DNA of 50,041 nucleotides from Firmicutes bacterium HGW-Firmicutes-3 (GCA_002841435.1 PGZS01000002.1:1-50041), one strand, 5' to 3'. Shown: positions 13,102 through 49,954, counted from the stretch's first letter. Program-made: numbers and translations. The notes: a model not told the origin generated them from the sequence alone.

Positions 13102-14901
13102 TTGATGCAAAAACCCAAAATGAATCTATATATCAAAATAATCATGATTTATATTTTTTTGATTCTATTACCGTTAACAATTTTGTTTTTTACATTTACC
13201 TATAAAGCGTTAAGTGAGATACAAACGAATTACCTCTCGTTTATGATGGAAAACAATAATCAATTAAACCAAAGAATCAGCTTAATTATTACGGATATTG
13301 ATCGTGTATCGTCACTTTCAGTTATTGATGATGAAGCACAAAGGATTCTAAGCAAGAATTATAAAACCTATGGCGTAGAAAATCTCACTGATCGTGAAAA
13401 AATGATTAATTTAATCAGCATCTCTTCTACATTAAGTACTTTTTTCTATGAGGTCATTTATGTTAGTCAATATGAAATGTTTTATACTAATTTAAGTTCA
13501 ATATCTCAAGAACTAGAGGATAGAATTATTAACGAATGGATTCCTTATCTGACAGCTAATGGTAATAAACGAATGATTACGGATATTTATCAAAAAAATA
13601 CGGGAGTAGCTTATATATCCATTAATAGAAGAATATTGAATCCATATAGTTATAAAGTAAACGGATATGTTTTTATAAATATACGACAAAAGGACTTGCA
13701 GAGAAATCTAGACAAAACAAATAGGACAAAGAAGGATGGATTTATAACAAATACAATTATACTAAGTGAAAACAATATCATTTATCATTCAAAGGATGAA
13801 GACTCTTTACCAATCGAGTTTAATAGGGTTATTTTTGATACGATTAAAAATAACTGGGAGAGTATTGAAAAATCCAGATTGAAAATAGAGTTTGAAGGTA
13901 ATGAATACATTATGACAGGCATAAAAAACGAAGATACAGGCTGGTATATTATTCAATACATACCAATGAAGTACATTGCCAATTATTCAAAAAAAACACT
14001 TTACTTTTATTTATTTATTATGCTTCCTATATTGTCTTTATTTCTTCTGTTAGGATATTACTTTTCAGAAAGAATCGTATCCCCAGTACATAAGTTGAAA
14101 TGTGCCATGAAAAAAGTGGAAAATGGTATTTTTGAGCAGTTGAAAGATAAAAGTAAAAAAGCGAATGAAATAGATGAATTAATTGAATCTTATAATACAA
14201 TGGTCATTAGACTTGAAAAAACTATACGTCAAAAATACATATCTGAAATGAATAAACGAACAATTGAGTTTAAAATGCTTCAGGCACAGATTAACCCCCA
14301 CTTTCTATACAACACGCTTAACCTTATCACTTCAATGGCAGAACTTGAAGGGAATGGAAAAATAGGAAGAGTTTCAAACAGCCTGGCGAGAATGTTTAGG
14401 TATAACATTCAGGAAGGTGACATAGTTAGAATTAAACAAGAGTTAGAACAGGTCTCTAATTATGTAACAATTCAGAAATTGAGATTTTATGATAAAGTAG
14501 AATTTTGTTATGAGATTTCAGAGGAAATAGAGTCCTATTATATGTTGAAATTTTTATTTCAACCCCTTATTGAGAATGCCATTTTCCATGGGATTGAAAA
14601 TAAAGACGGTCCCGGTAAAATTGACATGATTTTTAAAGAAGAGCAAGAAATGTTAATTATTAAGATTATAGATGACGGGGTGGGAATGTCTGAAGATACT
14701 TACCTTGGTATATTAGAAAAAATTACGAGGAGAAGAGAAGAGTATTTTAAGCAAGAAAGATACGATCATATTGGTATTGAAAACATTCACTGTAGAATTA
14801 GGGACTATTATGGAGAAGAATTTGGGCTACACATTGAATCCATATTGGGAGAAGGAACAATTATTGAAATGAAAATTCCGATAGTCAAGGAGATGAAATA
14901 A
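13102..14901 (+). CDS. Sensor histidine kinase, YesM/LytS-type
   Basis: TM-extracellular-TM, HAMP-like segment, QAQINPHFLYNTLNLI H-box, GVGMSEDTY and IGIENIHCRI ATPase motifs. Confidence 0.92.
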   Translation: MMQKPKMNLYIKIIMIYIFLILLPLTILFFTFTYKALSEIQTNYLSFMMENNNQLNQRISLIITDIDRVSSLSVIDDEAQRILSKNYKTYGVENLTDREKMINLISISSTLSTFFYEVIYVSQYEMFYTNLSSISQELEDRIINEWIPYLTANGNKRMITDIYQKNTGVAYISINRRILNPYSYKVNGYVFINIRQKDLQRNLDKTNRTKKDGFITNTIILSENNIIYHSKDEDSLPIEFNRVIFDTIKNNWESIEKSRLKIEFEGNEYIMTGIKNEDTGWYIIQYIPMKYIANYSKKTLYFYLFIMLPILSLFLLLGYYFSERIVSPVHKLKCAMKKVENGIFEQLKDKSKKANEIDELIESYNTMVIRLEKTIRQKYISEMNKRTIEFKMLQAQINPHFLYNTLNLITSMAELEGNGKIGRVSNSLARMFRYNIQEGDIVRIKQELEQVSNYVTIQKLRFYDKVEFCYEISEEIESYYMLKFLFQPLIENAIFHGIENKDGPGKIDMIFKEEQEMLIIKIIDDGVGMSEDTYLGILEKITRRREEYFKQERYDHIGIENIHCRIRDYYGEEFGLHIESILGEGTIIEMKIPIVKEMK

Positions 14902-16476
14902 TTGAAAATACTTATTGTAGAAGATGAATTCTATATGAGAAAGGCATTAATAAAAATTATTCATGGAAAGTATAATAATGATTGCGAGATTACGGAAGCT
15001 GAAAATGGGATTAAGGCTACAGAATACTTTAAGGATAACTATTTCGACATTGTTATTACAGATATCAGAATGCCCCAAATGAACGGACTAGAACTAGCAG
15101 AGTGGATTCAGAAGCATTATCCTCACACATTTATAATTATTATTAGTGGCTATTCTGAATTTGAATATGCACAAAAAGCACTCAAATATAAGGTTAAGGA
15201 GTATATTCTTAAGCCCTTAGAAAAAGAGGAAATTTATCGTGTGCTCGACACAGTTTTTAAGGAAGTCGATGTTAAAGTCTTAAAGGAAAAACAGGAAGCA
15301 ATTTTGATTAAGAATGCTACACAAGCAATAGAACGGCAAGAATTGGCGAGTATTATTAATAATAGACAAAATCTTAATAAAGAAGATTTCATGGAGCTTC
15401 TCGATATTGAATCTGAACAGATATTTTTCAGTATTATGGTTGTTCGTTATAAGAAGGTTATTAATGAACAGGTTAAGGAGTCTTTTAAAATGATATTTCG
15501 AAATGCAAACAATATCAAGACCTATTATAATTATGCAAATAGAAATGAAATGCTAGTTTTCTCCTATGGATATAATAGCTTAAAGCATTATGTAGACGAG
15601 ATATACTCAAGGCATTTGTATTGCATAAAAAATATGATTTCTATGGGTGAAGCAGATGATGTTGTTATAGGAATAAGTAAGACACATGATAGAATTATAG
15701 ATTTTTCTGTTGCCTATGATGAAGCTAGACAATCCCTTCTTAATTACTTTTTACTAGGCTGGGGAAAGGTGTATATATATAGTGACAATATGAACAGTGA
15801 TAATGAACCAATGAAGATGTCAAACGATCTTTTTAACCGATTTAAAAGTGGACTAATGGATGGGGATTTAATACGAAGTACGAATACACTTAATAGGATT
15901 GTGGAATTTTTAGTTAATTATAAAAATAATGAAAGTACTGAAAGTACTGCTATTACAATTCAACTGTTCTATATGAAACTAGAGATTATCCTAGATGAAG
16001 TAGCAAACAAAAATAACATAAAATTGGATACTAGGAAAGAATATGATTCTTTTAATGAAGTAGGGGATTTAGTTGATTATTTTAGTAGACTCATTTCTAT
16101 CATATGCAAAGAAATGGATCTAAAAAACAAGGAAACTTCCGTTATTAAATCTTTGGTAGAGTACATTAAAAATAATTATTATGAACCCCTTTCTCTGGAT
16201 GAGATAGCGAGTAAAATGTATTTTATGAACCCATCTTACTTAAGTAGGTTATTTCATGATGAGACGGGCGATACTTTTTCAAAAACACTATTAAATATAC
16301 GAATGGAGAAAGCTAAACAATTATTGGATGAACAAGAGCTCTCTATAACAGAAGTAGCAGTCACGGTTGGCTATAATAATGTAGCTTACTTTATTAAAAC
16401 GTTTAAAAGTATTTATCAACAGACACCTGGACAATATCGAAAGACCTGTGGCAATAAATCAAATATGCGAAACTAA
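14902..16476 (+). CDS. Response regulator, YesN-type with AraC HTH output
   Basis: ILIVEDEFYMRKALI...DIVITDIRMPQMNGLEL...SGYSEFEYAQKALKYKVKEYILKPLEK and C-terminal AraC HTH (NPSYLSRLFHDETGDTFSKTL...VGYNNVAYFIKTFKSIYQQTPGQYR). TTG start abutting the kinase stop. Confidence 0.93.
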   Translation: MKILIVEDEFYMRKALIKIIHGKYNNDCEITEAENGIKATEYFKDNYFDIVITDIRMPQMNGLELAEWIQKHYPHTFIIIISGYSEFEYAQKALKYKVKEYILKPLEKEEIYRVLDTVFKEVDVKVLKEKQEAILIKNATQAIERQELASIINNRQNLNKEDFMELLDIESEQIFFSIMVVRYKKVINEQVKESFKMIFRNANNIKTYYNYANRNEMLVFSYGYNSLKHYVDEIYSRHLYCIKNMISMGEADDVVIGISKTHDRIIDFSVAYDEARQSLLNYFLLGWGKVYIYSDNMNSDNEPMKMSNDLFNRFKSGLMDGDLIRSTNTLNRIVEFLVNYKNNESTESTAITIQLFYMKLEIILDEVANKNNIKLDTRKEYDSFNEVGDLVDYFSRLISIICKEMDLKNKETSVIKSLVEYIKNNYYEPLSLDEIASKMYFMNPSYLSRLFHDETGDTFSKTLLNIRMEKAKQLLDEQELSITEVAVTVGYNNVAYFIKTFKSIYQQTPGQYRKTCGNKSNMRN

Positions 16477-30174: not shown

Positions 30175-30210
30175 ATTGTTGTGTTACTATACTATATTGA
30201 GGTGATTGAT

Positions 30211-32022
30211 ATGAAGGGTACTGTTGTGTCTACGTGGTTAAAAACATGTAAAAAAATGCTAGGTGATGATTTAATAGAAGGTGCTTTGATAAAGTCAAAT
30301 ATGGATCCTAACAGAGTTTTTTCGCCACTTGAAGATGTGGAAGATCGCCAGGTATTTGGTTTAATCTCAAATATTGCCTCGGCAGGCAACATGGATGACA
30401 AAAAATTATGGCGTCTTATTGGTACGGATAATTTAGTTACATTTAAAACGGACTACCCTGGTTTTTTCAGAAGAGAAAATGCCTATCAATTTCTGAATTC
30501 AATGAACGACTTGCATGTGATTGTCATGAAAAGATTCTCTGGTGCAAAGCCACCCGCTCTTGACATGACTGTAATAGGTACCAATAAGGTACAGTTTAAA
30601 TATAGTTCCAAAAGAGGCATGTTTGATTATTTTCTAGGTCTTATAGAAGGTGTCAAATCCTATTTCAAAGAGAATTTTTCTATAATTGAAGTCGGACGAA
30701 GTGAAACAGAGCTTACATTGGAAATAGAATTTGAATACCCTGTTGAAGTTATTCGTAAATATACTTTTAATCGATTATTTTCATTGGGATTCATTAAAGA
30801 TATATCTCTTAAAATCAGTCTGGCAACGATGCTGACAGTGGCTGTTTTGGGAAGTATATTAACGATTATTGCACCTGATATTATTGGATTAAGTGCTGTT
30901 GTTGGTTTTACATTTTTATCAGGTCTGGCTTCTTTTGTAAATGCAAAATGGTTGAATAAGCCTTTAAAATTATTAAACAATAGTATTTCGGAAATGCAGC
31001 AAAAAACATATAGTAAAAAATATATCGTTTCTTCAAAAGATCAATATGAAGATTTATTAAATCAGATTGAAAAGTATAAAGACAGTTTGAAGATTGATTT
31101 TCAAGGTTATAACGGTATTGTTGATGAAATGTCTATCTTCAGTAAAACCATGGATGAGATATCAAAAAGCATGGCCTTCACCTCAGATGAGATTGGCGAT
31201 GTGGTTGAACAGCTTGCCTATGCAGCAACCAGTCAAGCAGAAGAGACTGAAAGCTCAATCTATATGCTTAATGACAATATCAACGAGGTTAAACGTATCG
31301 CTCATGAAGAAAATGAGAATAAAGATGAATTAGAAATTTCGGTTAAGAAGATAGAAGATAGCTTTGATCATGTTGAAAAAACAGCTTATGAGATTCAAAT
31401 CATTTTAAAACACTTCGAAAAAGTTAAAGAAAATGGCCTTAAACTAAAAGATAATGCTCAGGGTATAACCAACATTGTATCTTTGGTATCTGCCATATCA
31501 CGCCAGACAAATTTGTTGGCACTGAACGCATCTATAGAAGCAGCAAGAGCCGGTGAAGCAGGAAAAGGCTTTGCAGTAGTAGCCGAAGAAGTGCGTAAGT
31601 TATCAGAAGCAACCAATGATGCTGTAGGTAAGATTAACAGTAGGCTTGGGGATTTTGTTAGTGAGATTGGTCAGATGGTCACGGATGTCGATCATCAATA
31701 TTCAAGTCTTGAAGATGAGAATAAAAAATTATCTCATGCGGTCAGTGCTTCAGGGGTAGCAAAAGAAACAATACAAGAAGTAGCCAATAAAATGGTTGAG
31801 ACATCAAAGAAGCTAGAGACAGAGACAGAAGCAATAGCCAAAGTATTTACGAATATGGAGTCATTAGCGGCCATTGCAGAAGAAAACTCTGCATCAGCAC
31901 AACAAGTAAGTGCGAATGTCACCAATTATACTGAGCAAATTCACAATTTAAGTGGGAATATTAGTACGTTTAAAGGTATTACAGCAGGATTTAGTGAAGA
32001 CTTAAGTGTTTATAAGATATAG
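30211..32022 (+). CDS. H-NOX (heme NO/O2-binding) domain methyl-accepting chemotaxis protein
   Basis: [20 protein letters not shown]...[13 protein letters not shown]...[18 protein letters not shown]...[17 protein letters not shown]; two TM; MCP hairpin tip [34 protein letters not shown]. Confidence 0.95.
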
Positions 32023-34698: not shown

Positions 34699-35814
34699 TC
34701 ATTCTTGGATTGTATTGTCATCTTGAAGAATACGAAATAATTCATCCAGCAACAGATCATTATCATCCTTACATAAAATGCAAAACCTCAAGAATTTATT
34801 GGATAAGAATGGAAAACTTGAAGCATCACGTATCATGAGATTTTTCTGAATGAGCTTTTCAAAAACATCGAAACTATTATGGGGTGTTAAAAGTTTTATT
34901 AATATGAAATTAGCGGTTGCAGGATAAACCTTGACAGTTGGCCAGAGCTCCAAAATACTTAAGATGCGTTGACGCTCAGTTGAGATAAGGTGTCTGCTCT
35001 TGTCGATATAGGCTAGGTCTTGTATCATTAGTTCTCCTGCGTATGCAGCTAAGGAGTTGATGGTCCACGGATTTTTTAAATCATTAATTTTATGAATAAG
35101 GGCTTTGTTACCACTGATACCATAACCAAGTCTTAACCCCGGAGCCGCATAGAACTTAGATACACCACGAATAATAAAAAGATTCTGATAAAAAGGCGTC
35201 AACGATACGGCAGAGACATCATGAACATCCTCAGCAAATTCCACATAGGTTTCATCTATGACAACATCTACATCTTGTTCAAGGCAAAAATCCAAGATTT
35301 CTCTCATTTCCTTTTTGAAAATAGAAGTCGATGTGGGATTATTTGGGTTACATATAACCAGTAAATCCGTTTGTTCGGATAGGTGTTGTTTTAGATTTTC
35401 AATGTTAATTTTAAAGTCATCTTCTTCAAGAAGGGGAAAGTATCTGGATTTTCCATCATTGATAAAAATCTCTCTCTCATATTCAGAATAGGTAGGACCA
35501 ATAATTAAAGCATTCTGAGGATGGAGTACTTTTATAAATAAAGAAATGAGTTCAGTTGAACCGTTGCCAACCAGAATATCTTCATAGGGAGCACCAATAT
35601 ACTTCCCTAATGTTTTTCGAAGACTTAAGTAGTCTCGGTCAGGATAGGCTGCAATTAGGTGAATTTGTCTTGCCAGTTCTTCCTGTATGGTGCTTGAGAG
35701 TCCAAGAGGGTTGACATTACCACTGAAATTAATAATATCAGAGGGTATTAAATTGTAGTGGGCAGCTATTTTTTCTAAATCGCTACCATGAAAATGCTGT
35801 AGAATATTAGCCAT
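34699..35814 (-). CDS. PLP-dependent aminotransferase, CobD/HisC-like
   Basis: IINFSGNVNPLG...PDRDYLSLRKTLGKYIG...ILVGNGSTELI...CNPNNPTS...VVIDETYVEF...RGVSKFYAAPGLRLGYGI. Confidence 0.85.
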   Translation of the reverse strand: MANILQHFHGSDLEKIAAHYNLIPSDIINFSGNVNPLGLSSTIQEELARQIHLIAAYPDRDYLSLRKTLGKYIGAPYEDILVGNGSTELISLFIKVLHPQNALIIGPTYSEYEREIFINDGKSRYFPLLEEDDFKINIENLKQHLSEQTDLLVICNPNNPTSTSIFKKEMREILDFCLEQDVDVVIDETYVEFAEDVHDVSAVSLTPFYQNLFIIRGVSKFYAAPGLRLGYGISGNKALIHKINDLKNPWTINSLAAYAGELMIQDLAYIDKSRHLISTERQRILSILELWPTVKVYPATANFILIKLLTPHNSFDVFEKLIQKNLMIRDASSFPFLSNKFLRFCILCKDDNDLLLDELFRILQDDNTIQE

Positions 35815-35999: not shown

Positions 36000-38900
36000 A
36001 TGGATTGTGATTTTGAAGAACGCATTGAGGCAGATTATGAGTTGCTGTTGCCAAGACCCGTATTTTCTACTGAACATATAAATATAACCATCGAAGAAGA
36101 CAAGAAGTATTTTGGCAGAATTTTAATGGAAAACATAGGTGAAGGGTATTTTTTTGCTCATGTTACGGTATACGGAAAAGGTATACATTTAGAGCATCAA
36201 AGAGTTGAAGGAAATAAAACCGATTTAGCCTTTGGAGTGGATGCTAAGGATTACAAAATTGGCGAAGCAATCGATGGATATGTATTGTTTACCTACCAAG
36301 GCGGAGAAAAGAAAATCACGATTAAAGGACAGATTATTCAGACGCCCACATCTTTGGATGCATGGATTAAACCGATAAAAAAAGTATCAATAGATCAACC
36401 GCTAGCTCAAAGAAAAGCTTATCAGATTGTCATGAGTAAGAAGTCATATAACAGTCAGGAAGCAGCTAGAATTCTTATTTACAATCAAGAAATATACCCC
36501 ATAACAATAAAAGCAAGGACGAAAGATAAAGATCTATTGTTTGAAAATCCCTTTATAACAGTTGAGGAAATGGGTTATCTGGATGTTAGGCTAAATACTT
36601 CTTTATTTTCTAGATTAAGATATGGTTATTACAATAGGTATTTGCCGGTTATTGAGAAAAGCATTGTATTAGAAATACACACAGAAAATGGCTATGAAGA
36701 TGTTGACTGTAACTTGACTTTTACTAAGCTTATGGATTTTCATGTTGAAGGAAAAATAACATCCGAAGCAGAATTTAGGCAATCCCTTATTGAAGTTCAT
36801 AAATTGTACACATCCTATCTTTTGAAACAGGATAAGCATATTTTAAATAAAACAATTCTTATCCTTAAGCGCGCTATTGCATATCATTTAACCGATATGA
36901 ACCTTAGACTTTTTTTTATCATGCTATTATTGGATATGCATGAGGTGGATGAAGTTAACAATCAGCTCATAGCCCTTTCAAAATACAAGCAATATTATTT
37001 TGACCTTGACCCCAAAAATCATAGTGAATTAATTTCTACGCTCTACGATTGGATAAAGGGTGATGATGTGACTGAAATAATAAAGCATTGGCCCATGACA
37101 CCAATGAAGCAAATGTTTCGTATGCATCTTTTTAACTCCACACATCTTACTTTTCATGATTTTGAAAAGCTATACATGGAAGGGATTAGGAGCCCATTTC
37201 TTTATGCAGAAGCAACGGTCCTCCTTAACCGTAAACCTATGGTTCCACTTGGGCCATCTAAGTTTTACAGATCTTTACTTAGATGGGCGCTTAATAAAAA
37301 TATGTTGTCAGATCAATGGATAAATCTTATTGAAAACAGATATTATCAAGTCACTCAGACGGAGGTATTAGATAGTAATTTGTGCTATAAACTATATGCA
37401 ATGCGGTTTTCAATGAACCTTCAAAAAATGTTGTGTACATTCCTGATTCATGAACAAAGAACAGATTCAAAGGCCTATTCGATTTATGCAGCAGTATTAA
37501 AAGAAAATATTTTCATTAAGGATTTAATGACCTACTATATTAAATCGGCTTTTTCTAATCGCTTAAACATCGAAGTAGAGAACTTGACTTTAATGACCGT
37601 ATATCAGAATTTAACCCATGATGAAATGGCTTATTGTCTAAAACAATATGGTCAAAAATCACGCCCAAATGAAAGCTATTATGGTGTGTATAGAAGGTTG
37701 TATTATGATTTTTTACCCACTTGCATACATGAAGGTATAAGTGAAGACGAGGGTGTGCTTGTTTTAAGAGAAATAGAGTATCTTTTAGAAAAACAACAAT
37801 GGATTGAGCTAAAAGCATTAATCTCAAATAAAGGTCTAAAGCAGTTGGTCTCTATAGATGAAAAAATAATAAAAGAACTATTAGAACGCGGTATTGAAGG
37901 TCTGGACTTTAAATGGCTTGAGCAACAATTGGACTTGAAGACGATATTTAGATTGATTTCAGATGAACACTATAGAGTTTATGTTAATCTATTGCTGAAT
38001 CAAGAACGTTTCAAAGATCTTATAATATTAGAGAATGACCGGCTTCTTAGTCGAGACAATGGACAAATATTAATAGGAATTCTTAAGAAGTTACGTGAGA
38101 AAAAAAGTGAATATGCTTATGATTTAGCTTATAGAATGAATAAGATGAACATCAATCATCCTATAGTACTTGAGATCATATCAGAAACATATGAAGACTG
38201 CCTTGAGAGTATGCTGGATTTTCTGAACCAAATGCTAACAGTAGGCGTTCGATCAAAAAACTATATGGAACGTGTCCTTTATAAAGGTGCTATAACAAGG
38301 CTTGACCATGACCGTATTTATGAAGCTTATTTGAATTATAGAGAGATGTTTTATGATCAAGTCGTATATGAAGCCATGGATCGCTACTATGCAGCTCGTA
38401 TTTTGATTGAAGAAACTTATGGTACCCAAAGGTTGATTGAGGTGTTTGAGGAAGATATCTACAAATGCCGACATCCTTTTCCGATTGGTTTAGCATTACT
38501 AAAGCTATACGACCACTATGACAAAAAAAACGAAGTAATTTCGAATAATCTTGTCAAAAATGCTGTAAAGAATGGTATAATATTTCCGTGGTTTGCCAAC
38601 TTAGCCATCCCTTACCTAGAAACAAGTCGATTTAGAAAAGGTACTTTTTTTTCTTATAATTGCAGATCTAAGATGGATGTGACCATGCACTATAGGGCGG
38701 ATGGACAAGAGACATACCAAACGCTTCAAATGAAGCATGTAGCTTTTGGTCTTTTCATAGGCTATATCATTACTTTTTACATGGACCATGTGGATTACTA
38801 CTTTGTTGAAGCTTCTGAAGACGGAAAAAGTGATATAACAGAGAGTCATCAGTTTGTCCAATCAAAGTTCCTTGAACCACAAAACGAATGGAACGGGTTT

Positions 38901-39020
38901 GATGTGATTAACTCAATTAAGATGAGTCAAATGATGAAAGACGATGAAAGTTTGGATAACATCATGCGGCATCATATAGAGATTAGAAAAACAATCAGAG
39001 ACACGATGGAAATACTGTGA
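36000..39020 (+). CDS. Large protein (1006 aa), DUF5717-like; N-terminal beta-domain then helical repeats
   Basis: Intact ORF with AAGGAG-like RBS; beta-rich first ~240 aa, alpha-helical remainder; family assignment by memory only. Confidence 0.7.
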   Translation: MDCDFEERIEADYELLLPRPVFSTEHINITIEEDKKYFGRILMENIGEGYFFAHVTVYGKGIHLEHQRVEGNKTDLAFGVDAKDYKIGEAIDGYVLFTYQGGEKKITIKGQIIQTPTSLDAWIKPIKKVSIDQPLAQRKAYQIVMSKKSYNSQEAARILIYNQEIYPITIKARTKDKDLLFENPFITVEEMGYLDVRLNTSLFSRLRYGYYNRYLPVIEKSIVLEIHTENGYEDVDCNLTFTKLMDFHVEGKITSEAEFRQSLIEVHKLYTSYLLKQDKHILNKTILILKRAIAYHLTDMNLRLFFIMLLLDMHEVDEVNNQLIALSKYKQYYFDLDPKNHSELISTLYDWIKGDDVTEIIKHWPMTPMKQMFRMHLFNSTHLTFHDFEKLYMEGIRSPFLYAEATVLLNRKPMVPLGPSKFYRSLLRWALNKNMLSDQWINLIENRYYQVTQTEVLDSNLCYKLYAMRFSMNLQKMLCTFLIHEQRTDSKAYSIYAAVLKENIFIKDLMTYYIKSAFSNRLNIEVENLTLMTVYQNLTHDEMAYCLKQYGQKSRPNESYYGVYRRLYYDFLPTCIHEGISEDEGVLVLREIEYLLEKQQWIELKALISNKGLKQLVSIDEKIIKELLERGIEGLDFKWLEQQLDLKTIFRLISDEHYRVYVNLLLNQERFKDLIILENDRLLSRDNGQILIGILKKLREKKSEYAYDLAYRMNKMNINHPIVLEIISETYEDCLESMLDFLNQMLTVGVRSKNYMERVLYKGAITRLDHDRIYEAYLNYREMFYDQVVYEAMDRYYAARILIEETYGTQRLIEVFEEDIYKCRHPFPIGLALLKLYDHYDKKNEVISNNLVKNAVKNGIIFPWFANLAIPYLETSRFRKGTFFSYNCRSKMDVTMHYRADGQETYQTLQMKHVAFGLFIGYIITFYMDHVDYYFVEASEDGKSDITESHQFVQSKFLEPQNEWNGFDVINSIKMSQMMKDDESLDNIMRHHIEIRKTIRDTMEIL

Positions 39021-39029
39021 GGATAAAAA

Positions 39030-40706
39030 ATGGGGACATTAAAACTGGAATTTGAAAAAGGATTATTCTTAGGTATCGATTTTGGTACAACCAATACGGT
39101 GGTAAGCGTCTACGATTATGATGCCGGCAGTGTATACACAATACCTATCGATGGTCAGTTCATATTTCCGACTGCCGTGCAATTTGAAATGGATATGGAA
39201 GTACCTGGAAAACTAAACAGTATATTTGGTGTCCAGGCAAAAGAATCAGCCATTATTTATCCGGAAAGTACGGTTCTATCGATAAAAAGGCTTTTGGGAA
39301 AAGATCAGCCTATTCAGGTGGTTGTAGAAGAGACGATTTATGATTTCAAGCCAGAGGATATTGTAGCTCAGATATTAAGCTATATTAAGATTAAGGCAAA
39401 TGATTATATCCATGAAGAGAAGCATGTCAGTGGTGAATTTAGCGGTTGTGTTATAACGGTACCGGCCAATTCTACGGACAAACAAAAAAACAAGATGCGT
39501 TATGCAGCCATGATTGCAGGTTTCATAGAAGATAGTATCTTTTTAAGACTGGAACCGGCGGCAGCAGCTATTAGTTATGCACAAATCGCTAAAAAAGACT
39601 GTCATGTTCTCATTTATGATTTTGGAGGCGGAACATTTGATGCTTGTCTGCTGAATCTAAAAGCTATCCAAGATGAAGAACCGGAGATATCCATTATGAG
39701 CACACATGGTGATAACCATTTAGGTGGGGATGACTTAGATCGCTTAATGATGGATATGGTCTACGATGCTTTTTTAGAGACTACCGGGCATGAAATTAAT
39801 TTGTTTGATCTGTCAAAAGATGATGGTGTATCCAATCTTCAGAAGAAAATGGCCTTGGTTCGAATGCAACAAGTGGCCAATCATGCAAAGGAACAGCTGT
39901 CAAAAACAACTTCCACAAAAGTAGTTTTAGCACCATTTTTACAGGAACCGGAGATGATTAACATAAGCCTTGAGATTAGTCGTGAGGCCTATTATAATCA
40001 TAAAAGAAAGCATATGATGGATGAAAGCTTAGAAGATTTCAAACAAATGGAAGGGTTTTCTGTTAAAGATTTGGTTGCAAGAACAATGACTTGTGTGGAT
40101 GGGTGTCTTGAAGCAGCCGGACTTAAGGCTAAAAAAGTGGATGAAGTATTCCTTGTTGGAGGCAGTTCAGCCATTGTTGAAGTCATAGAACAGATTAGAG
40201 ACAAATTCGAGAGGGAGCCATATAAGGCAATGATTAGTCCTGCACTTAGTATATCCCAGGGTGCTGCTTACTATTGTAATATGATTATGCTGCCATCTAT
40301 AAAAGGCCCGAAAGTATTTGAAAAGACAGTTCATCCCTTGGGATTAGAAATTGCCGGACGTCGCTTTATGGAGATTATTGAGGCCAATATGCCCATTCCT
40401 GAGGAAGGTCTTGAGATTGAAGGGGATGAGTTGCTTTATACGAACTATGATGATATTACCAGTATGGCCATTGTTGTTTATGAAGATATTTCAGTTGATC
40501 GTGAGAAGCGACTAAAATTCGTAACAGAAAAGGGCATGAGAAGATTGGGCGCCACCACACTGGAAGGAATTCCAATGGCACCAAGAGGCGAAGAAAAGGT
40601 GAAGGTTGTTTTTAAAGTTAATAGAAATCATTTATTGACAGTTGTAGCCACAAGTACAAGTACAACAGGTGTAGAAACCATATTGGCTGTCGACCAATTA
40701 TATTAA
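39030..40706 (+). CDS. Hsp70-family protein A (lidless)
   Basis: LGIDFGTTNTVVSVYD; IYPESTVLSIKRLLG; LIYDFGGGTFDACLL; EVFLVGGSSAIVEV. Confidence 0.93.
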   Translation: MGTLKLEFEKGLFLGIDFGTTNTVVSVYDYDAGSVYTIPIDGQFIFPTAVQFEMDMEVPGKLNSIFGVQAKESAIIYPESTVLSIKRLLGKDQPIQVVVEETIYDFKPEDIVAQILSYIKIKANDYIHEEKHVSGEFSGCVITVPANSTDKQKNKMRYAAMIAGFIEDSIFLRLEPAAAAISYAQIAKKDCHVLIYDFGGGTFDACLLNLKAIQDEEPEISIMSTHGDNHLGGDDLDRLMMDMVYDAFLETTGHEINLFDLSKDDGVSNLQKKMALVRMQQVANHAKEQLSKTTSTKVVLAPFLQEPEMINISLEISREAYYNHKRKHMMDESLEDFKQMEGFSVKDLVARTMTCVDGCLEAAGLKAKKVDEVFLVGGSSAIVEVIEQIRDKFEREPYKAMISPALSISQGAAYYCNMIMLPSIKGPKVFEKTVHPLGLEIAGRRFMEIIEANMPIPEEGLEIEGDELLYTNYDDITSMAIVVYEDISVDREKRLKFVTEKGMRRLGATTLEGIPMAPRGEEKVKVVFKVNRNHLLTVVATSTSTTGVETILAVDQLY

Positions 40707-40721
40707 TCATCGGAGGCAAAC

Positions 40722-42416
40722 ATGAAGCGAATTATAAAAGATAACGAGATAGAAAAAATCGTGCTTGAATATAAGGTGAAAATGCATATTATTGAAGACT
40801 TAACTTGTAACCTTATTAGAATTCAAATTGAGAATATCGCATCAAGGATGCTCCTTGGTATAAATCAAGATCTTAAAAACAAAGATGAAACAAAAAGTTT
40901 TGAAGGTTTATATTACCTGATGAAAGATACAAAAAACATGTATGAAAAATGTATTCGTTTCATTGGCGATCATGAAATTCGATTAGAAAATAAACAATTG
41001 ACGGACATCGTTATAGGGATTAAAGAAATGGCAGAAAATGCAGTATTTAGTATTGGAAATGGCAAGGATAACCCTATCGCTTATGAGCGTATGGTAATCA
41101 TCAGTGGTGGCATACTTAAAATAAAAGAGGCTTATCGTAAGAAAATGGACATGCTTCATGAAGCATGTTTGATTGATAGTCACATAACCAAAGCGTCACT
41201 GTTAGAATATATTCATAACTTTGTATCTTCATTTTTTGAAGGGATGGCGAAACCGGTAAATGAAATCGCTAATAATATTCTTAATGATTTATGGGAGAGT
41301 ATAGAGAAGAAAAAGTATACGAAGCTTTTAATTGAGCAGAAAAAAGTTATGGAATCCCTCATGATGGTTAAGGTGGATGACTTTGGCAAAAAAAACCTAA
41401 CGCAGCAAGAAGCGGATTTTCTTGAGGCACTCACAAGTATTATACACGATGGGTATGAGCAGATTTTGATGAAAGAAGAACAACTGAGCAGAGCTGTGCA
41501 GATTGAGGTAAATGAGATTGGATTTTTGTCACAGGAGGCCGTTAAGCTGGCAATAGAGAAGAATATGTCCGTGTATAAGGACAATGTCGATGCGATCCTA
41601 AAATATGTGGATGAAAATCACCAAAATAGCCATGAAGCTTTCATTAATTTGATGTACGATGAACTCTACAAAACCCATAGATGTTTATTAATGAAGATAA
41701 AAAAGGAATCAACAAACTATCAGATTCTCAGTTGTCACATACTGGAGCTATTTGAAAAATTAGTAGCCGGCCTACAAGAACTGCAGCTGAAATATAAAAC
41801 GGTAGAAGGCCAAAAAATTGGTGAGGCAATTTGTGATACAATTTATATGAAATATGAAACATTAAAAGAAAAGGATACAGAATATCAGTTAATCAAGAAA
41901 GACGTTAGTATACTAGAGGATAAAAAGCTTTTTGATATGAGAATATTGATTGCAGAAAAAGGTGAAGATTTACTAGAAGACGCCATCGATGGTTTGACGG
42001 AGGGTTTACTAGACATTCAGACCCATTATCTAAAGGAAATGGCTATTATTGAAGAAACCGTTCACAATCAAAATATGGTATATCTTAAGAATGACATATT
42101 ATTTGAACTGAGAACATATGAAGAGATGATGCGTCATTCTCTAAAAAAGCTCATGGATTTGGAAGGCGAAAAAGTAAAAGAATTATCTTTACTACTAATG
42201 GAAGCGCAACGGTCATTTATGAATGCACTGGATAGGATACAAATTACAGTCATTGAACCCCGTGAGCATGATCAGTTTGATGGGAAGCTACATGAGGCTA
42301 TTTTGGCAGAGGCCTTAGAAGGATTTGAAAAAGGAAGCATCATCAAGTGCCAGAGTGTAGGGTATCAAATAGAACCCAATATTCTGCTTAGAGCCATGGT
42401 CATTGCAGCCAAATAG
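40722..42416 (+). CDS. Long helical protein with C-terminal GrpE-like domain
   Basis: C-terminus VIEPREHDQFDGKLHEAILAEALEGFEKGSIIKCQSVGYQIEPNILLRAMVIAAK matches GrpE pattern (D...HEA...G.I......GY......R.AMV..AK). Confidence 0.85.
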   Translation: MKRIIKDNEIEKIVLEYKVKMHIIEDLTCNLIRIQIENIASRMLLGINQDLKNKDETKSFEGLYYLMKDTKNMYEKCIRFIGDHEIRLENKQLTDIVIGIKEMAENAVFSIGNGKDNPIAYERMVIISGGILKIKEAYRKKMDMLHEACLIDSHITKASLLEYIHNFVSSFFEGMAKPVNEIANNILNDLWESIEKKKYTKLLIEQKKVMESLMMVKVDDFGKKNLTQQEADFLEALTSIIHDGYEQILMKEEQLSRAVQIEVNEIGFLSQEAVKLAIEKNMSVYKDNVDAILKYVDENHQNSHEAFINLMYDELYKTHRCLLMKIKKESTNYQILSCHILELFEKLVAGLQELQLKYKTVEGQKIGEAICDTIYMKYETLKEKDTEYQLIKKDVSILEDKKLFDMRILIAEKGEDLLEDAIDGLTEGLLDIQTHYLKEMAIIEETVHNQNMVYLKNDILFELRTYEEMMRHSLKKLMDLEGEKVKELSLLLMEAQRSFMNALDRIQITVIEPREHDQFDGKLHEAILAEALEGFEKGSIIKCQSVGYQIEPNILLRAMVIAAK

Positions 42417-42430
42417 CAAGGAGGCTTTTA

Positions 42431-43849
42431 ATGAAGCTCAGTAGAATTCATGAAAACCATTATTATATTGGTATCGATTTTGGGCATCATACCGTTAGTG
42501 TAAGTGCACTTGACAATCGGTCTGAAAAACCGGTTATGATAGATAGAACAGGTGGATATGGACAAATCTATGTACCGGCACAGATGGTGTATATGACCAA
42601 GGAGTGTGCATGGCTTATAGGTGAGGAAGCAACAATGATGGAAAAAAGTCAAGATACTGTATTCATAGAAAACCTATTATCCGGTCTTTATGAAAGAAGA
42701 AGCTATGATGTTGAAGGCATATGTTATGAAGCTGAAACATTAATTGCGATTTACATAAACGAAATGCTTAAGCATTTGGATAGTATAAACCCAAATAATA
42801 TAATTAAAGGCCTGACCATCACTCTGCCCGATCGAGTGGATTATAAGACACATAAAATACTAGAAGAAACGCTAATACTTTACTTTGAAAAATCTAAGAA
42901 ATGGAAGAACAAGTTTCAGATTCATGTTGTTACGAATTCCGAAGCGATGCTTGCTTTCTTGGAAGGCTATAACTTGATTGAAGGAAAACAATGCTATTTC
43001 ATGGACTTTGGTCATGAAGCATTCAGAGTCTATGATGTACACCTAGAGCCACATATAACCATCAGTCTTATTGTTGAGTCCAAAGCTTTATCAGGTTATG
43101 TTATATTTGAAAAAATAGAAAAATTACTATGTGTAGCTTACCTGAGTCATCAAAATAAGAATAGCTTAGATGAAGAAGAAAGTAGACACATTCAGGACAT
43201 GTGTAAAATATATTATGCATATATTCTAAAAGCGTATCAAAATAAAAGTGATGTAAAAATAACCTATAAATTTCCCCATCCACCATTTCAAATCAAGTTG
43301 CAAGTTTCTGAGCTCATGAAAGTTTTTGAACCTATTGAGTCATCTTTTGAAAAAAAGTTAAACAGGCTTAAAACAAATGACGGAGATTATGAAGTTGTGG
43401 TCATGGGAAATGGATTCAGAACCCTATGGCCAAAGTATCACCTCCATGAGAAGGCATTCAGTATCTTAGTGGAAGATCTGGATGCGGCTTCAAAAGGGGC
43501 AGCATTATGGTCTTTGAAGCCTTTTAGAAAGCAAAAAATAAATCATATCGGACGTTTGAAAAAAGACTATGGTATCATAATACAAGAAGGTGAAGAGAAG
43601 CATTTCTTAATAATTGCTCAGTCAGGAAGCTACTATGCCTCTGATTTTACACCTATGGGGCTTATCATGGTGAGAGACCATGACTTAAGTCTGAAGATAT
43701 GTACAAAAGATGCAAATGACAAGATAGAACAGATTATGTCCATGGAACTGAAACCTAATAATAGTGAGGCAATATTTCGAGTCACTTTGAAAATAGAGTT
43801 TGATCAAGAGATGCATTTGGTACCGACGGTCATGTATGATGAATTATAG
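42431..43849 (+). CDS. Divergent Hsp70/actin-fold protein B (nucleotide motifs degenerate; DUF5716-like?)
   Basis: YYIGIDFGHHTVSVSAL; GLTITLPDRVDYKTHK; CYFMDFGHEAFRVYDV; EVVVMGNGFRTLWP. Confidence 0.8.
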   Translation: MKLSRIHENHYYIGIDFGHHTVSVSALDNRSEKPVMIDRTGGYGQIYVPAQMVYMTKECAWLIGEEATMMEKSQDTVFIENLLSGLYERRSYDVEGICYEAETLIAIYINEMLKHLDSINPNNIIKGLTITLPDRVDYKTHKILEETLILYFEKSKKWKNKFQIHVVTNSEAMLAFLEGYNLIEGKQCYFMDFGHEAFRVYDVHLEPHITISLIVESKALSGYVIFEKIEKLLCVAYLSHQNKNSLDEEESRHIQDMCKIYYAYILKAYQNKSDVKITYKFPHPPFQIKLQVSELMKVFEPIESSFEKKLNRLKTNDGDYEVVVMGNGFRTLWPKYHLHEKAFSILVEDLDAASKGAALWSLKPFRKQKINHIGRLKKDYGIIIQEGEEKHFLIIAQSGSYYASDFTPMGLIMVRDHDLSLKICTKDANDKIEQIMSMELKPNNSEAIFRVTLKIEFDQEMHLVPTVMYDEL

Positions 43850-43861
43850 ACGAGGTGTTAT

Positions 43862-45499
43862 ATGAATTGGGAACATTACAAAGAACAGATTAAAATCAAT
43901 GGTGAAATGGAAGAAGACTGGTATATAATTGGCATCGATTTAGGTACAACAAACTCTGTTGCCAGTTATTGGAACAGTAGAACCGGTAAGCCGGAACCGA
44001 TTGATGTTAGCAATGGATTCGGCAAAATACCGATGCCTTCTGTGGTTCAATATCGACAGGAAGAAGATTACGAAGGAGAATGGGTCATTGGTGAAGAGGC
44101 CCTTCAAACCTTTAGAATTTATCCCGAATCTACGATTATGTCTGTTAAAAGGAAGATGGGTTCAAAAGATAAAATAAGGCTTAACAATAGAGACTATTTG
44201 CCGGAAGAGATAGCTGCCATGATATTAAAAGCATTAATCGACCATGTCAGAGGCCTTAATCCCAAAATGATATTGGCAGGCGTTGTGGTCTCCGTACCTT
44301 ATGATTTTGATGATGCAGCAAAAAAAGCAACCATTCGAGCGTGTCAATTGGCTGGGCTAAGTGACGGGCTTATTGGTTTAATGGAAGAACCAAAAGCCGG
44401 CACATTGGCTTATAACTTCAGGCATGATTTAAGTAAAGACGAAAAAGTAATGGTATTTGATTTTGGCGGTGGCACTTTGGATATAACCATCTTTTGCGTG
44501 GCCGAAAAAAATGATGAAGCCATTCATCTTAAGGTTATCAGTGAAGGTGGTGAAGCTTACCATGGTGGCGACCATATCGACGCGTTGCTCTATCTACAGA
44601 TGGTCAAGTGGATGGAAGAAAAGACGGGACAGACAAGAGAGACAATGACGGTTGAAAGCGTAGCAGAACTTTCACAAAGGGCGAGGGAGACGAAGGAACG
44701 ACTTTCAGGTGTTATGAACTATAGAGTGCCATATACATTTTGTGTACCACCCTTTGTACAAAATTTATCGAGAGACGAATTTGAAGATATCATTCGCCCC
44801 TTCATTCAAAAAACAAAGGCCTTGGTGCTTCAAACGATGAAAGAAGGGTATAATGGCTTAATCAATCCGGATGAAATAAATAGAGTTATACTAGAAGGCG
44901 GATCATCACAAATGCCTTGGGTAAAAAGAATGCTGGGTGAAATATTTGGTGATATAGATAAGATATATGTATCGGAACAACCGGCACTGGATATATCAAT
45001 GGGAGCGACTTATTATGCAGCCATGAAGCTAGGTCTTTTAAAACACCGGGATCTGCACACATCCGATCGACAAGTTCATTTTGAAATACCGGTACCCCAT
45101 GATATTGGTTTTGAAATAGATTATAATAATAAAAAAGATTTCTATTCAATGATAAAAAGAGGTACCCCTTATGCATTGGCCAAAAAAACCATGAAGTTCA
45201 CCTTATCGGGAAATAATGATGAGGATATGACCAGCATAGATCTGAAAATCCTCGAGAGAATTAAGAAAGAGGACCAACTGGAGAATTGTAAACTTATTGG
45301 CTTAGTCAGAATACTAGGTCTACCCAAACGACCTAAAGGTAAAACCAGACTTGAAGTAACATTATCCATTGATGAAATGAGTGGCACGGTGAAAGGTCAT
45401 GTAAAAGATATGGGCTATAGTGGTGAGTATGAGGCAAGTGACTTTAATCGCAAATTTTCTCCAAGCCGCAACGAGATGCAGATCATTCAAGCAAATTAA
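43862..45499 (+). CDS. Hsp70-family protein C (lidless)
   Basis: IIGIDLGTTNSVASYW; IYPESTIMSVKRKMG; VFDFGGGTLDITIF; RVILEGGSSQMPWV. Confidence 0.94.
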   Translation: MNWEHYKEQIKINGEMEEDWYIIGIDLGTTNSVASYWNSRTGKPEPIDVSNGFGKIPMPSVVQYRQEEDYEGEWVIGEEALQTFRIYPESTIMSVKRKMGSKDKIRLNNRDYLPEEIAAMILKALIDHVRGLNPKMILAGVVVSVPYDFDDAAKKATIRACQLAGLSDGLIGLMEEPKAGTLAYNFRHDLSKDEKVMVFDFGGGTLDITIFCVAEKNDEAIHLKVISEGGEAYHGGDHIDALLYLQMVKWMEEKTGQTRETMTVESVAELSQRARETKERLSGVMNYRVPYTFCVPPFVQNLSRDEFEDIIRPFIQKTKALVLQTMKEGYNGLINPDEINRVILEGGSSQMPWVKRMLGEIFGDIDKIYVSEQPALDISMGATYYAAMKLGLLKHRDLHTSDRQVHFEIPVPHDIGFEIDYNNKKDFYSMIKRGTPYALAKKTMKFTLSGNNDEDMTSIDLKILERIKKEDQLENCKLIGLVRILGLPKRPKGKTRLEVTLSIDEMSGTVKGHVKDMGYSGEYEASDFNRKFSPSRNEMQIIQAN

Positions 45500-45512
45500 A
45501 AGGAGCAGTGAT

Positions 45513-47600
45513 ATGGGATTTCTAGGGATTGACCTTGGTACGACAAATTCAGTTGCCGTTATTTATGATGACAAAAAGGATGAATTAAGTATCGTAAAAA
45601 TTGATGGTATGGAAGAGGTTCTGGCCTCAGCGGTATGTATTCTGGAAGAGGAAATAGTTGTTGGAAGTGAGGCAAAAAACAGTGCGATCATATACCCGGA
45701 AGAAACAATTCTGTCCATTAAACGGCAAATGGGTGAGACATTTGCTATAAAAATCGGAGAGAAAAACTATCTGCCGGAAGATATAAGTGCCATACTTTTA
45801 GGGCATTTAAAAGCTGCAGCCCAGTTACAAAGCGGAGAAGTTTATGATGAGGTGGTCATCACTCATCCGGCCTATTTTAATGATAGACAAATCTATGCTA
45901 CAAAGAAAGCCGGAGAACTGGCTGGATTCAAACAGGTACATCTATTGTCAGAACCCTTGGCATCTGCTATTGAATATGGTTACAAACAAGGATATGCTCA
46001 GACATTGTTGGTGTATGATTTAGGTGGCGGAACATTTGATGCTTGTGTGCTTAAAGTGATAAAAGATTTAAATGGCCATGAAACCTTTCAAGAGTTGGCA
46101 GATGTAGGTGATATGCATTTGGGTGGTGATGATTTTGATCAGATTCTGGTAGATTACATGGTTGAACAGTTTAGAGTTATGACGGGGATTCGGATTCAGG
46201 ATATAGAAGTTAGAGAATCAACAAGAGTTCTTCATAAGCTTAAACAAGAAGCTGAATTACTTAAGAAAAAATTATCCAGTATCAACAAAGCCAGTGTCAA
46301 GATATACCCACTTATGATACATGAGGGTATGCCTTTGAATCTGTCACTGGAGGTGACCAAGGATGAATTCGAGGCACTTATTCGACCTATGATTGATAAA
46401 AGCAAGGACATCATCAAAGAGGCTTTAAAAAGAGCGGACCAAACACCCGATGATATTTCTAAAGTCATACTTGTAGGTGGTTCTACCCTTGTTCCTATGG
46501 TAAAAAGGATGGTGGCAGGTTTTATAAAAGAGCCATATCGTGCTACGGATCCGGCTAAAAGCGTTGCCATGGGCGCTGCGTTGTACAATTATCTGATTCA
46601 TTTGCCAAACAGTCAAGTGAAGGTCGGGCAAATTACGAGGCAAAATTTTGGTACAGAAGCCATCATCAATATAGCGACAAATGAAAAATCATTAATCCCG
46701 ATTATTCCTATGGGCAGTACCATCCCAATTGAAGTGACAGATGATGGCTTTAGTGCCACATCAGGAGCGAGTACTGTTAGAGTGGATGTTTTTCAGTGGG
46801 AAGAAGGCCATGAAGAGGATAGAAAATACACAGGATCTCTTATGTTAGAGGGTATTAGTCAAGATGCCCGCATTTCAGTAAAGTATACCATTAATAATGA
46901 TAATCTTTTTGAAGTTACAGTAAGAGATCAAAATACCGAAAAGGAAATATCCGGTGTATTTGATCGAAAAAAAACGATGCCAAGATTACCGGATATGGAA
47001 AAATATACAAAGGTAGCAGGCGAGGGATTGAATATTGTTTTTCTAATGGATACGACGGGTAGTATGGATACCTATATTGACGGGGTAAAAGAAAAAGCCA
47101 TCGCTTTCTCCAATATTTTAGAAGCAAGAAAAATTGACTACAACTTAGGTCTTATCGGTTTTGGTGATCTACTGGAAAATGAAAAGCCAAAAGTCTACAG
47201 ATGGACAAAAGACATACGTAAGTTCCAAAAAAGAGTGACTAAAATACCAAGAACCTGCGGTGGCGATATACCCGAGTCTTCTATGGACGCGCTTGAAACA
47301 GGTATAGACTTATTAAGTAGGCTTAAAGAGGGTGAAAGCTATAAGAATATTTTCATCTTGATTACCGACGCACCACCTCATGTACCGACTGTAAATGGAA
47401 AAACGGTGAATGACGTGGTGGATGCATTAATCTCCAATAAAATAACAACTTATGTTGTGGCAAGAAAAGATTATAAAAGTCTTGAGGCTTATGAACCTCT
47501 GACACGCACCGGAGGTCATTACTACTCAATGCAAGATGATTTTATGGATATATTGGATGCAATAGCATACGCCATAGCGGATTTAGTTAAAACAACTTGA
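45513..47600 (+). CDS. Hsp70-VWA fusion protein D
   Basis: GIDLGTTNSVAVIYD; VYDLGGGTFDACVL; KVILVGGSTLVPMV; then VWA domain NIVFLMDTTGSMDTYIDGVKEKA...CGGDIPESSMDALETG...NIFILITDAPPH. ATG 45513 with AAAGGAG preferred over 45420. Confidence 0.94.
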   Translation: MGFLGIDLGTTNSVAVIYDDKKDELSIVKIDGMEEVLASAVCILEEEIVVGSEAKNSAIIYPEETILSIKRQMGETFAIKIGEKNYLPEDISAILLGHLKAAAQLQSGEVYDEVVITHPAYFNDRQIYATKKAGELAGFKQVHLLSEPLASAIEYGYKQGYAQTLLVYDLGGGTFDACVLKVIKDLNGHETFQELADVGDMHLGGDDFDQILVDYMVEQFRVMTGIRIQDIEVRESTRVLHKLKQEAELLKKKLSSINKASVKIYPLMIHEGMPLNLSLEVTKDEFEALIRPMIDKSKDIIKEALKRADQTPDDISKVILVGGSTLVPMVKRMVAGFIKEPYRATDPAKSVAMGAALYNYLIHLPNSQVKVGQITRQNFGTEAIINIATNEKSLIPIIPMGSTIPIEVTDDGFSATSGASTVRVDVFQWEEGHEEDRKYTGSLMLEGISQDARISVKYTINNDNLFEVTVRDQNTEKEISGVFDRKKTMPRLPDMEKYTKVAGEGLNIVFLMDTTGSMDTYIDGVKEKAIAFSNILEARKIDYNLGLIGFGDLLENEKPKVYRWTKDIRKFQKRVTKIPRTCGGDIPESSMDALETGIDLLSRLKEGESYKNIFILITDAPPHVPTVNGKTVNDVVDALISNKITTYVVARKDYKSLEAYEPLTRTGGHYYSMQDDFMDILDAIAYAIADLVKTT

Positions 47601-47634
47601 TACGATATGAGTAAAACAAAGGGTTTGATGATAG

Positions 47635-48783
47635 ATGTACAAAAGTATAAGCCCCATGGGAATGGAGCATGGTTTCGTTATACATACGATTTCAAAAAAA
47701 ATCTATAGTTTTGAAGGATTTTGTTATTGGATGTACCACCATGTCGAAGGATTTACGGACATTATCGAGAATAGAAGCTTCATCAGTTGGTTGAAAATGG
47801 ATCTAGGTATGACGGATCTTGTTATAGAAATAGAGAAGTTATATGATAACGATTGTAATACCTTGGAAATCATGGTAGGAATCCTAAAGCTTTGTTCATA
47901 CACTAAGGCGCTAGACCATCATGATTTCTCAAAAAGATTGATGGATTATTTAGATAGACCAAAGCATTTACAGTATAAACAAAAAGCAGACAGTTTTTTT
48001 AAGATGGGGCATTATAAGAATGCACTAAAATGGTATAAGACAGCTCAAAGCATACACTTTGATCCCATAATTGAGAACAACATAGCAATCATATATATGA
48101 TTTTTGAAGAGTTCGAGATGGCAATAAAATCTATCGATAAAGCACTTCATTCAAATCAGCATATATCCATTTATCTAAATAAAGTCAAATTCCATATCAT
48201 GTTAGATCAAAATCATGAAGGACTTAAAGTTTTAGATGAGATAGTTAAAAGCTTTGAACATCCAAAGATTTGGTATTATTATGGTCGGATTTATGAGAAG
48301 CTTAACCACTATATGGAAGCATTATCTGCATATGAACGTTTCTATGAGTTGACCCATTGTTCTGACATTTTAATAGACATGAGTAGGATAGACTTAGAGC
48401 TTGGTGATTATGACAGGGTAAGTTGGAGAATTAAAGAACAATGTAGTGATGCAGTGATTAAACTTTATCTCAAAGCTCAACAAGAGAAGAAATCAGAAAA
48501 CGGGTCAGAGTATATTATGCTCATGGATGAAGTTATAAAGTTATCAGATTATAAAAGGGATTATGTTCTAGAACTTGCCGATTATTACAAAGAATGTCGA
48601 CAGATTATAAAAGCCATTGGACTTATAAATACAATCCATGAAAATGAACGTTACCATGAAGAAGTTTTATATGTACAAGGAACCATAATTAAACAAGCGG
48701 GTAATAACGAAGGCTTTGAAAACCAAATCGATGAGATTATAAATCAGTGGAAAAAAGAAGTGCGCTGTAACACAATCGACTAA
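47635..48783 (+). CDS. TPR-repeat protein
   Basis: KADSFFKMGHYKNALKWYKTAQSIHFDPIIENNIAIIYMIFEEFEMAIKSIDKAL; IWYYYGRIYEKLNHYMEALSAYERFYEL. Confidence 0.85.
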   Translation: MYKSISPMGMEHGFVIHTISKKIYSFEGFCYWMYHHVEGFTDIIENRSFISWLKMDLGMTDLVIEIEKLYDNDCNTLEIMVGILKLCSYTKALDHHDFSKRLMDYLDRPKHLQYKQKADSFFKMGHYKNALKWYKTAQSIHFDPIIENNIAIIYMIFEEFEMAIKSIDKALHSNQHISIYLNKVKFHIMLDQNHEGLKVLDEIVKSFEHPKIWYYYGRIYEKLNHYMEALSAYERFYELTHCSDILIDMSRIDLELGDYDRVSWRIKEQCSDAVIKLYLKAQQEKKSENGSEYIMLMDEVIKLSDYKRDYVLELADYYKECRQIIKAIGLINTIHENERYHEEVLYVQGTIIKQAGNNEGFENQIDEIINQWKKEVRCNTID

Positions 48784-48793
48784 AGGAGAAAGC

Positions 48794-49954
48794 ATGGATA
48801 AACTAAAAGTCTTATATACACCGTTTCTAAAACTGTTTGATAAAATAAGATTGTTTATGGATAAGAAGCATCATATTGAAGAAAGCGTTGTTGGCGGCAT
48901 AGATATTGACCTTGAACAGTTATATGAAGATCCTGAAATAGCGATAAAACTCCAACAGCGTTATATAAAGACCATTGATGATATTGAAAAGCATAAAGAA
49001 AAGTACAAAGACACCGTGAACGAAATAACAACCATGCAGCGTATTGAGCTTATGTCCGGTAGAGGTAAGGCTGAACTGGAAAAACTATGCAAAGTCTATT
49101 CAGAAACATTGGTGAAAAAAGGTGAGTTCAAGGATAAAATACATGGGCAAGGCATACGAACAGTCGATTATCTAGAACAATATGAAGATCAAATGGATAA
49201 AATCATTGAGATGATGAAAGGACATGAAAAAAATCAGAGTATGGTTAAGCAAGATTTGGCTTATTTAGAATCTGAAAAAAGTGAACTCCTTTATCAGAGT
49301 AGTCGGCTTAAAAGTGCGTACAAATTTGTAAGGCATGCTTTTATTGTGGTTGCTATGTTCACAGCCTTAGCCGCACTTATATTAACCATATTTTTCTTTG
49401 TAAATAAAAAACCTATTCTATTGGAAGCCATGATCAGTATGGTCGCTATTATTGTGGCAACAGTATGGGTTTATATTTTTAGACGTTATTTGGTATATGA
49501 AATAAGTAAAAATCAAAAAATGATGAAGCGAACCGTTGAACTGACCAATAAAACAAAAATCAAATTCATTAATAATCAGAGTGTTATTGACTATCAATGT
49601 AAAAAGTATAGAATCGATAGCAGCGAAATGTTGGAACTCAGATGGGAAAACTACAAAAACCGTATGCATGCTGAAAGACAATATAAGAATATCAGCAATA
49701 GCATAGCCGCTATGATGTCTGATATAGAAGATTTACTTGAGAAAAATGGCATACGTGAAGTGGACTTTGTTTTGGATCATATGGATTATTTTGCTACCGG
49801 AAAAGGTAGAAAAATGTTACTAGATAAGCACATAACAAAAAAAGAAGAATTGTATTACAATCTTCAAAAAGCAGAACGTGAAAGTGGCATGATGAATCTT
49901 GTACTGACCAATTACAAGAGTCATGTGAGTCATGAAAAAAGCAAAGAGAAGTAA
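48794..49954 (+). CDS. Membrane protein with flanking coiled coils
   Basis: Charged helical N-half, hydrophobic hairpin HAFIVVAMFTALAALILTIFFFV...LLEAMISMVAIIVATVWVYIF, coiled-coil C-half. Confidence 0.8.
   Translation: MDKLKVLYTPFLKLFDKIRLFMDKKHHIEESVVGGIDIDLEQLYEDPEIAIKLQQRYIKTIDDIEKHKEKYKDTVNEITTMQRIELMSGRGKAELEKLCKVYSETLVKKGEFKDKIHGQGIRTVDYLEQYEDQMDKIIEMMKGHEKNQSMVKQDLAYLESEKSELLYQSSRLKSAYKFVRHAFIVVAMFTALAALILTIFFFVNKKPILLEAMISMVAIIVATVWVYIFRRYLVYEISKNQKMMKRTVELTNKTKIKFINNQSVIDYQCKKYRIDSSEMLELRWENYKNRMHAERQYKNISNSIAAMMSDIEDLLEKNGIREVDFVLDHMDYFATGKGRKMLLDKHITKKEELYYNLQKAERESGMMNLVLTNYKSHVSHEKSKEK

Follow-up and report, generated by a model that had tools for sequence, protein, structure and literature searches.

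Petrocella is among the bacteria of one order that bear a second set of Hsp70 genes beside their ordinary heat-shock chaperones, and the reading that we favour, with moderate confidence, is that this set encodes a dedicated, client-specific Hsp70 machine of that order, acting on a restricted client. In the window, by which we mean the whole 50,041-nucleotide stretch of DNA analysed here, the set consists of eight ORFs on the plus strand at 36000–49954 (Table 1). The ORF coordinates confirmed eight co-directional genes separated by roughly 9–34 nt, as the initial annotation had described, with gaps of 9, 15, 14, 12, 13, 34 and 10 nt along the cluster. A recognisable ribosome-binding site lies ahead of most start codons, and the start of HspD was corrected to the ATG at 45513 in place of a longer GTG frame. 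A plus-strand scan of the intergenic spaces of the cluster found no terminator, and promoter-like sites occurred within the cluster at the frequency expected by chance, as did the hits of the terminator scan. All eight genes, including the one encoding the putatively inactive HspB, are under purifying selection (dN/dS 0.04–0.14). A Pfam search of the eight proteins, which the initial annotation had suggested, found DUF5717, HSP70 (in HspA, HspC and HspD), GrpE, VWA and TPR domains; it returned no DnaJ-domain match, no HrcA and no family for the last gene, and no GTPase or known effector domain was found among the eight.

Table 1. Genes of the Hsp70 cluster, in window coordinates.
Feature	Length (aa)	Coordinates	Strand	Supporting evidence
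DUF5717 giant	1006	36000..39020	+	Pfam PF18983/PF18984 (DUF5717_N/C)
HspA	558	39030..40706	+	Pfam HSP70 1e-65
GrpE-L	564	40722..42416	+	Pfam GrpE 3.8e-10 at residues 481-563
HspB (predicted pseudo-ATPase Hsp70)	472	42431..43849	+	DnaK profile matches, DUF5716 orthology
HspC	545	43862..45499	+	Pfam HSP70 2.2e-52
HspD	695	45513..47600	+	HSP70 6.5e-88 and VWA_4 5.5e-11
TPR protein	382	47635..48783	+	Pfam TPR matches, position conserved
Membrane coiled-coil protein	386	48794..49954	+	TM hairpin ~183-226 (hydropathy), alignment

The contig stops where the window stops; in relatives, valS lies downstream of the last gene. On the other side, a class I/II aminotransferase gene (34699–35814, minus strand) is divergent to the cluster and is a conserved neighbour in a number of families, f6, f12 and f24 among them (families of the order are given by such labels). 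Elsewhere, the window encodes a DUF6056 protein (10932–12560), a histidine kinase with an AraC-type response regulator (13102–16476) and a chemotaxis receptor whose N-terminal domain is of the haem-NO-binding (HNOB) type (30181–32022). An RNA-family search of the window gave a single match, outside the cluster, to domains D1–D4 of a group II intron (4309–5681); an ORF for a reverse transcriptase follows closely downstream.

The cluster shares with the canonical hrcA-grpE-dnaK-dnaJ system the parts of an Hsp70 ATPase cycle, a GrpE head and co-directional genes. It differs in having neither DnaJ, HrcA nor CIRCE, and in encoding four divergent, lidless paralogs, a VWA fusion, and scaffold and TPR proteins. 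A separate and intact hrcA-grpE-dnaK-dnaJ set, preceded by a perfect CIRCE, is present on another contig of the same genome, whereas the window contains no CIRCE match with up to three mismatches allowed. We therefore rejected the idea that the cluster is the canonical DnaK operon, in agreement with the initial annotation, which had also noted that the region is free of CIRCE-type repeats.

HspA, HspC, HspD and HspB form one clade separate from DnaK. HspA, HspC and HspD each have an NBD with intact ATPase residues and an SBD-beta. The seven positions checked (D8, T11, K70, E171, D194, T199 and D201 in E. coli DnaK numbering) are invariant in 29 of 29 HspA, 27 of 27 HspC and 27 of 28 HspD sequences, the remaining HspD being truncated there. 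All four Hsp70s are without the helical lid: only 0–22 residues follow SBD-beta in HspA and HspC, compared with 140 in DnaK, and in HspD a VWA domain stands in this place. Nearly all orthologs preserve the MIDAS-type motifs of this domain (DTTGSM, GGD[IL]PE and LITDA). A structural model of HspD (pLDDT 78) predicts an NBD, SBD-beta, a flexible linker and the VWA domain, with no lid helices and a fold match to DnaK at 7e-52. The GrpE-signature loop has the DnaK length of 24 residues in HspD (28/28) and nearly so in HspA (23 residues, 29/29); it is six residues shorter in HspC (18 residues, 27/27) and is likewise shorter in most HspB proteins. The HspC deletion is as described for HscA, although the proteins score between 193 and 265 bits against an NCBIfam TIGR01991 equivalog cut-off of 708.55 and are not HscA by this measure.

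HspB evolves fast, and K70, T199 and D201 are not kept among its 35 orthologs, so that HspB is predicted to be a dead ATPase in all 35. The protein of the window falls below the Pfam HSP70 threshold; when its orthologs are aligned and searched together, they match DnaK structures across both the NBD and SBD-beta (E 1e-16). Similarly, it scores 18.3 against Pfam DUF5716_C, under the cut-off of 34.7, and orthologs at three other loci pass. Because HspB orthologs match both HSP70 and DUF5716_C, and DUF5716 is nested within the HspB branch of the tree, we identify HspB, from profiles and phylogeny, as probably Pfam DUF5716. The four Hsp70-fold paralogs proposed in the initial annotation are upheld, and its degenerate HspB can be stated more sharply as a universal candidate pseudo-ATPase that probably corresponds to DUF5716.

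GrpE-L has a long, helical and poorly conserved N terminus, and a GrpE head is confined to the last ~85 of its 564 residues; a GrpE-L profile matches the Geobacillus GrpE of the DnaK–GrpE complex 4ani. We propose that GrpE-L is a private exchange factor. Loci with active Hsp70s carry it and compact loci that have HspB alone do not, a co-loss that fits service to the active Hsp70s, and the loop kept in HspA and HspD points to these two as its probable partners.

Hsp70s are described as requiring a J-domain protein as partner (PMC7289447), and roles have been assigned to the J-domain contact and linker residues (PMC8215388, PMC7289447). In HspA, HspC and HspD, the VLLL-D linker and the J-domain contact positions are changed. 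None of the three has an arginine at the R167 site, which was counted back from E171 because it adjoins an alignment gap; in HspA, an arginine two positions away is invariant and might substitute for R167. The initial annotation saw no J-domain HPD motif in the region, and the lack of a DnaJ-domain match in the cluster extends genome-wide in six genomes with the full machine, where no J-domain is encoded apart from that of the dnaJ adjoining dnaK, which argues that no private J-protein exists there. The residue pattern disfavours service by the shared DnaJ. J-domain genes number two or three in Petrocella and its relatives; the Petrocella genomes have three, and given these a J-partner for the machine is possible in that genus.

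The DUF5717 giant has an N-terminal Ig/PapD-like beta-sandwich region, a TPR-like alpha-solenoid supported by TPR-like profile matches, and an alpha/beta C terminus. Many families encode the beta part on its own, in a gene immediately before DUF5717, and these split genes match DUF5717_N. A fold search with a low-confidence model (pLDDT 52) returned nothing beyond matches of a generic kind, to Ig, HYDIN PapD-like and helical-repeat folds. We propose that the giant is a scaffold. The initial annotation knew of no function assigned to the cluster, and the literature that we searched yielded none: it held no functional paper on DUF5717 or DUF5716, and no description of DUF5716 as a pseudo-Hsp70 or of DUF5717 as a probable scaffold encoded together with several Hsp70s.

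DUF5717 was found in 95 of the 196 genomes sampled from the order and HspD in 70, every one of which also has DUF5717; HspA is missing from all five tested genomes that lack DUF5717. Outside the order, DUF5717 was not found in a sample of 392 genomes of the class. The gene order (beta/)DUF5717-A-GrpE-L-B-C-D-TPR is kept in families f1, f4, f8, f17, f20, f23 and f24 and part of f12, and in f10 as far as the contigs reach, so that the conserved neighbourhood anticipated by the initial annotation extends across many families of one order. In some genomes the genes are dispersed. In G128, DUF5717, HspA and the block GrpE-L/B/C/D lie on three different contigs; the cluster genes of G193 and G190 are likewise split. 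In family f5 and in G190, where the genes lie on different contigs, HspA, HspD and DUF5717 are nonetheless all retained. We argue from this retention without linkage that the three belong to one functional unit, and the cluster is such a unit rather than a group of degenerate paralogs.

Family f6 carries a compact form of the locus. DUF5717 is present in all 21 sampled f6 genomes and HspD in none, and HspA was not found in the 17 genomes tested, in which matches were of DnaK level only. In f6 the locus has the order DUF5717-HspB-TPR, in most cases with the membrane gene after it, and contains neither GrpE-L nor HspC; the TPR protein is kept in full loci and in most compact loci. In trees, HspB is the sister of HspC, and the f6 DUF5716 proteins fall within HspB, although these were quick searches with long HspB branches, and placement inside HspB is less sure than the grouping itself. 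Since this topology implies that HspC was once present, the compact form would be derived by loss of HspA, GrpE-L, HspC and HspD, and the same four genes were lost separately in a genome of another family. The downstream valS and upstream aminotransferase gene, common to the full and some compact loci, fit descent of both forms from one ancestral locus.

The initial annotation had described a membrane-linked complex, and this part of it stands less firmly. Hydropathy analysis of the eight proteins placed transmembrane segments in the last one only, as two segments forming a hairpin. Its gene follows the TPR gene in f1, f4, f8 and several f6 loci, and four f6 loci have it beside the compact cluster at a distance from valS, so that a link to the machine is possible there. 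However, the gene is missing beside the machine in many families; in genomes of f24, f17, f5 and f2 a homolog lies just before valS, away from the machine; two genomes have the gene without the machine; and G059 and G193 keep the machine with no membrane-gene homolog found. Its standing as a core subunit is therefore weakened, the gene being separable and often paired with valS. In eight loci, the membrane gene and valS form a conserved pair independent of the Hsp70 machine.

Several other explanations were weighed. The proteins could be extra general stress chaperones that use the ordinary DnaJ on broad clients, and the three intact ATPase modules, the GrpE head and the one DnaJ available in each genome would suit this. 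We nevertheless consider it unlikely, given the lack of CIRCE and lid, the missing J-contact residues and conserved linker, the tight co-retention with DUF5717 and the fact that f6 keeps the pseudo-Hsp70 alone. These data support the dedicated rather than general machine suggested by the initial annotation, whose further proposal of assembly or remodelling stays an inference.

A part list closely similar to that of the cluster has been published for the 'theme 2' neighbourhoods of GAP1-N2 (Kaur et al. 2020), in which HSP70 and GrpE occur with an HSP70 reduced to its NBD and with an FNIII protein that carries a TPR or DnaJ fusion (PMC7159879), and VWA proteins occur in sister systems. These neighbourhoods are the closest published analog, having in common with the cluster HSP70, GrpE, an incomplete HSP70 and a beta-sandwich/TPR protein, and a related conflict or stress-threshold system would be one way to read the locus. 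Yet the GAP1-N2 domain was found in none of ten machine-bearing genomes, with a Corynebacterium control positive. The machine is without GAP1, GTPase or effector, and no DnaJ fusion was seen; it is vertical, order-restricted and single-copy, with conserved chromosomal neighbours and paralog trees alike in shape, unlike mobile conflict systems. We regard such a relationship as improbable. A defence system was also considered and rejected, the PADLOC matches being only weak.

A role in assembling or maintaining flagella was suggested by gene content: FliG is present in 64 of the 70 HspD genomes and in 72 of the 126 without HspD (odds ratio 8, p 3e-7, lineage-confounded and with no correction for phylogeny). 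In f12, FliG and HspD coincide, with both in four genomes and neither in 16, and P. atlantisensis is motile (PMC6647913). The counts follow lineages, however; among genomes without FliG, some keep HspD and others keep DUF5717, several of these being nearly complete, and many flagellated families are without the machine. This role is accordingly quite unlikely, and we take the FliG association as a lead for function. A link to sporulation was rejected, as SpoIVA shows no association (p 0.2–0.4). SpoIVA is absent from the four genomes of the genus Petrocella and present in many relatives, which fits the non-sporing description of P. atlantisensis. Finally, decaying Hsp70 duplicates held by operon structure with no joint function would account for the fast evolution and lost ATPase residues of HspB, but the dN/dS values of all genes, the co-retention, the survival of all tested parts after dispersal in f5 and the persistence of HspB where HspA, HspC and HspD were lost make this very improbable.

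For the dedicated machine, we envisage that the DUF5717 solenoid scaffold and the TPR protein would hold the lidless, ATP-hydrolysing HspA, HspC and HspD together with the non-hydrolysing HspB in a physical complex serving a single narrow class of client. GrpE-L would exchange nucleotide on HspA and HspD, and HspC, without the GrpE loop, would turn over alone, as HscA is thought to. Client engagement would be started by the scaffold, the TPR protein, HspB and the VWA metal site of HspD in place of a J-protein. This metal site would stand in for the lid and may hold the client by an acidic residue, and HspB could act as a fixed, ATP-insensitive binding or dimerisation subunit. More tentatively, the whole may be a J-protein-free, exchange-factor-driven assembly in which the lidless Hsp70s and the pseudo-Hsp70 are fixed subunits of one complex, with the VWA metal site serving instead of the lid and the beta-sandwich/solenoid scaffold instead of the J-protein.

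The known specialised Hsp70s of bacteria have a J-protein of their own and do without the exchange factor (PMC8215388). The machine resembles HscA/HscB and HscC/DjlBC (PMC8215388) as what would be a dedicated Hsp70 system with few clients, and the GrpE loop is lost in HspC and HspB as in HscA. In contrast to HscA and HscC, it keeps the exchange factor, the J-protein is missing, there is no lid, and its proteins lie far under the NCBI HscA cut-off. This reverse genomic pattern, together with a conserved, apparently dead Hsp70 and wide retention in the order, offers a direct test of Hsp70s as fixed subunits without a J-protein. Two Pfam families to which no function had been assigned, DUF5716 and DUF5717, gain a probable identity through the machine, and, if true, a J-protein-free Hsp70 assembly would make a fourth type of bacterial Hsp70 system next to DnaK, HscA and HscC.
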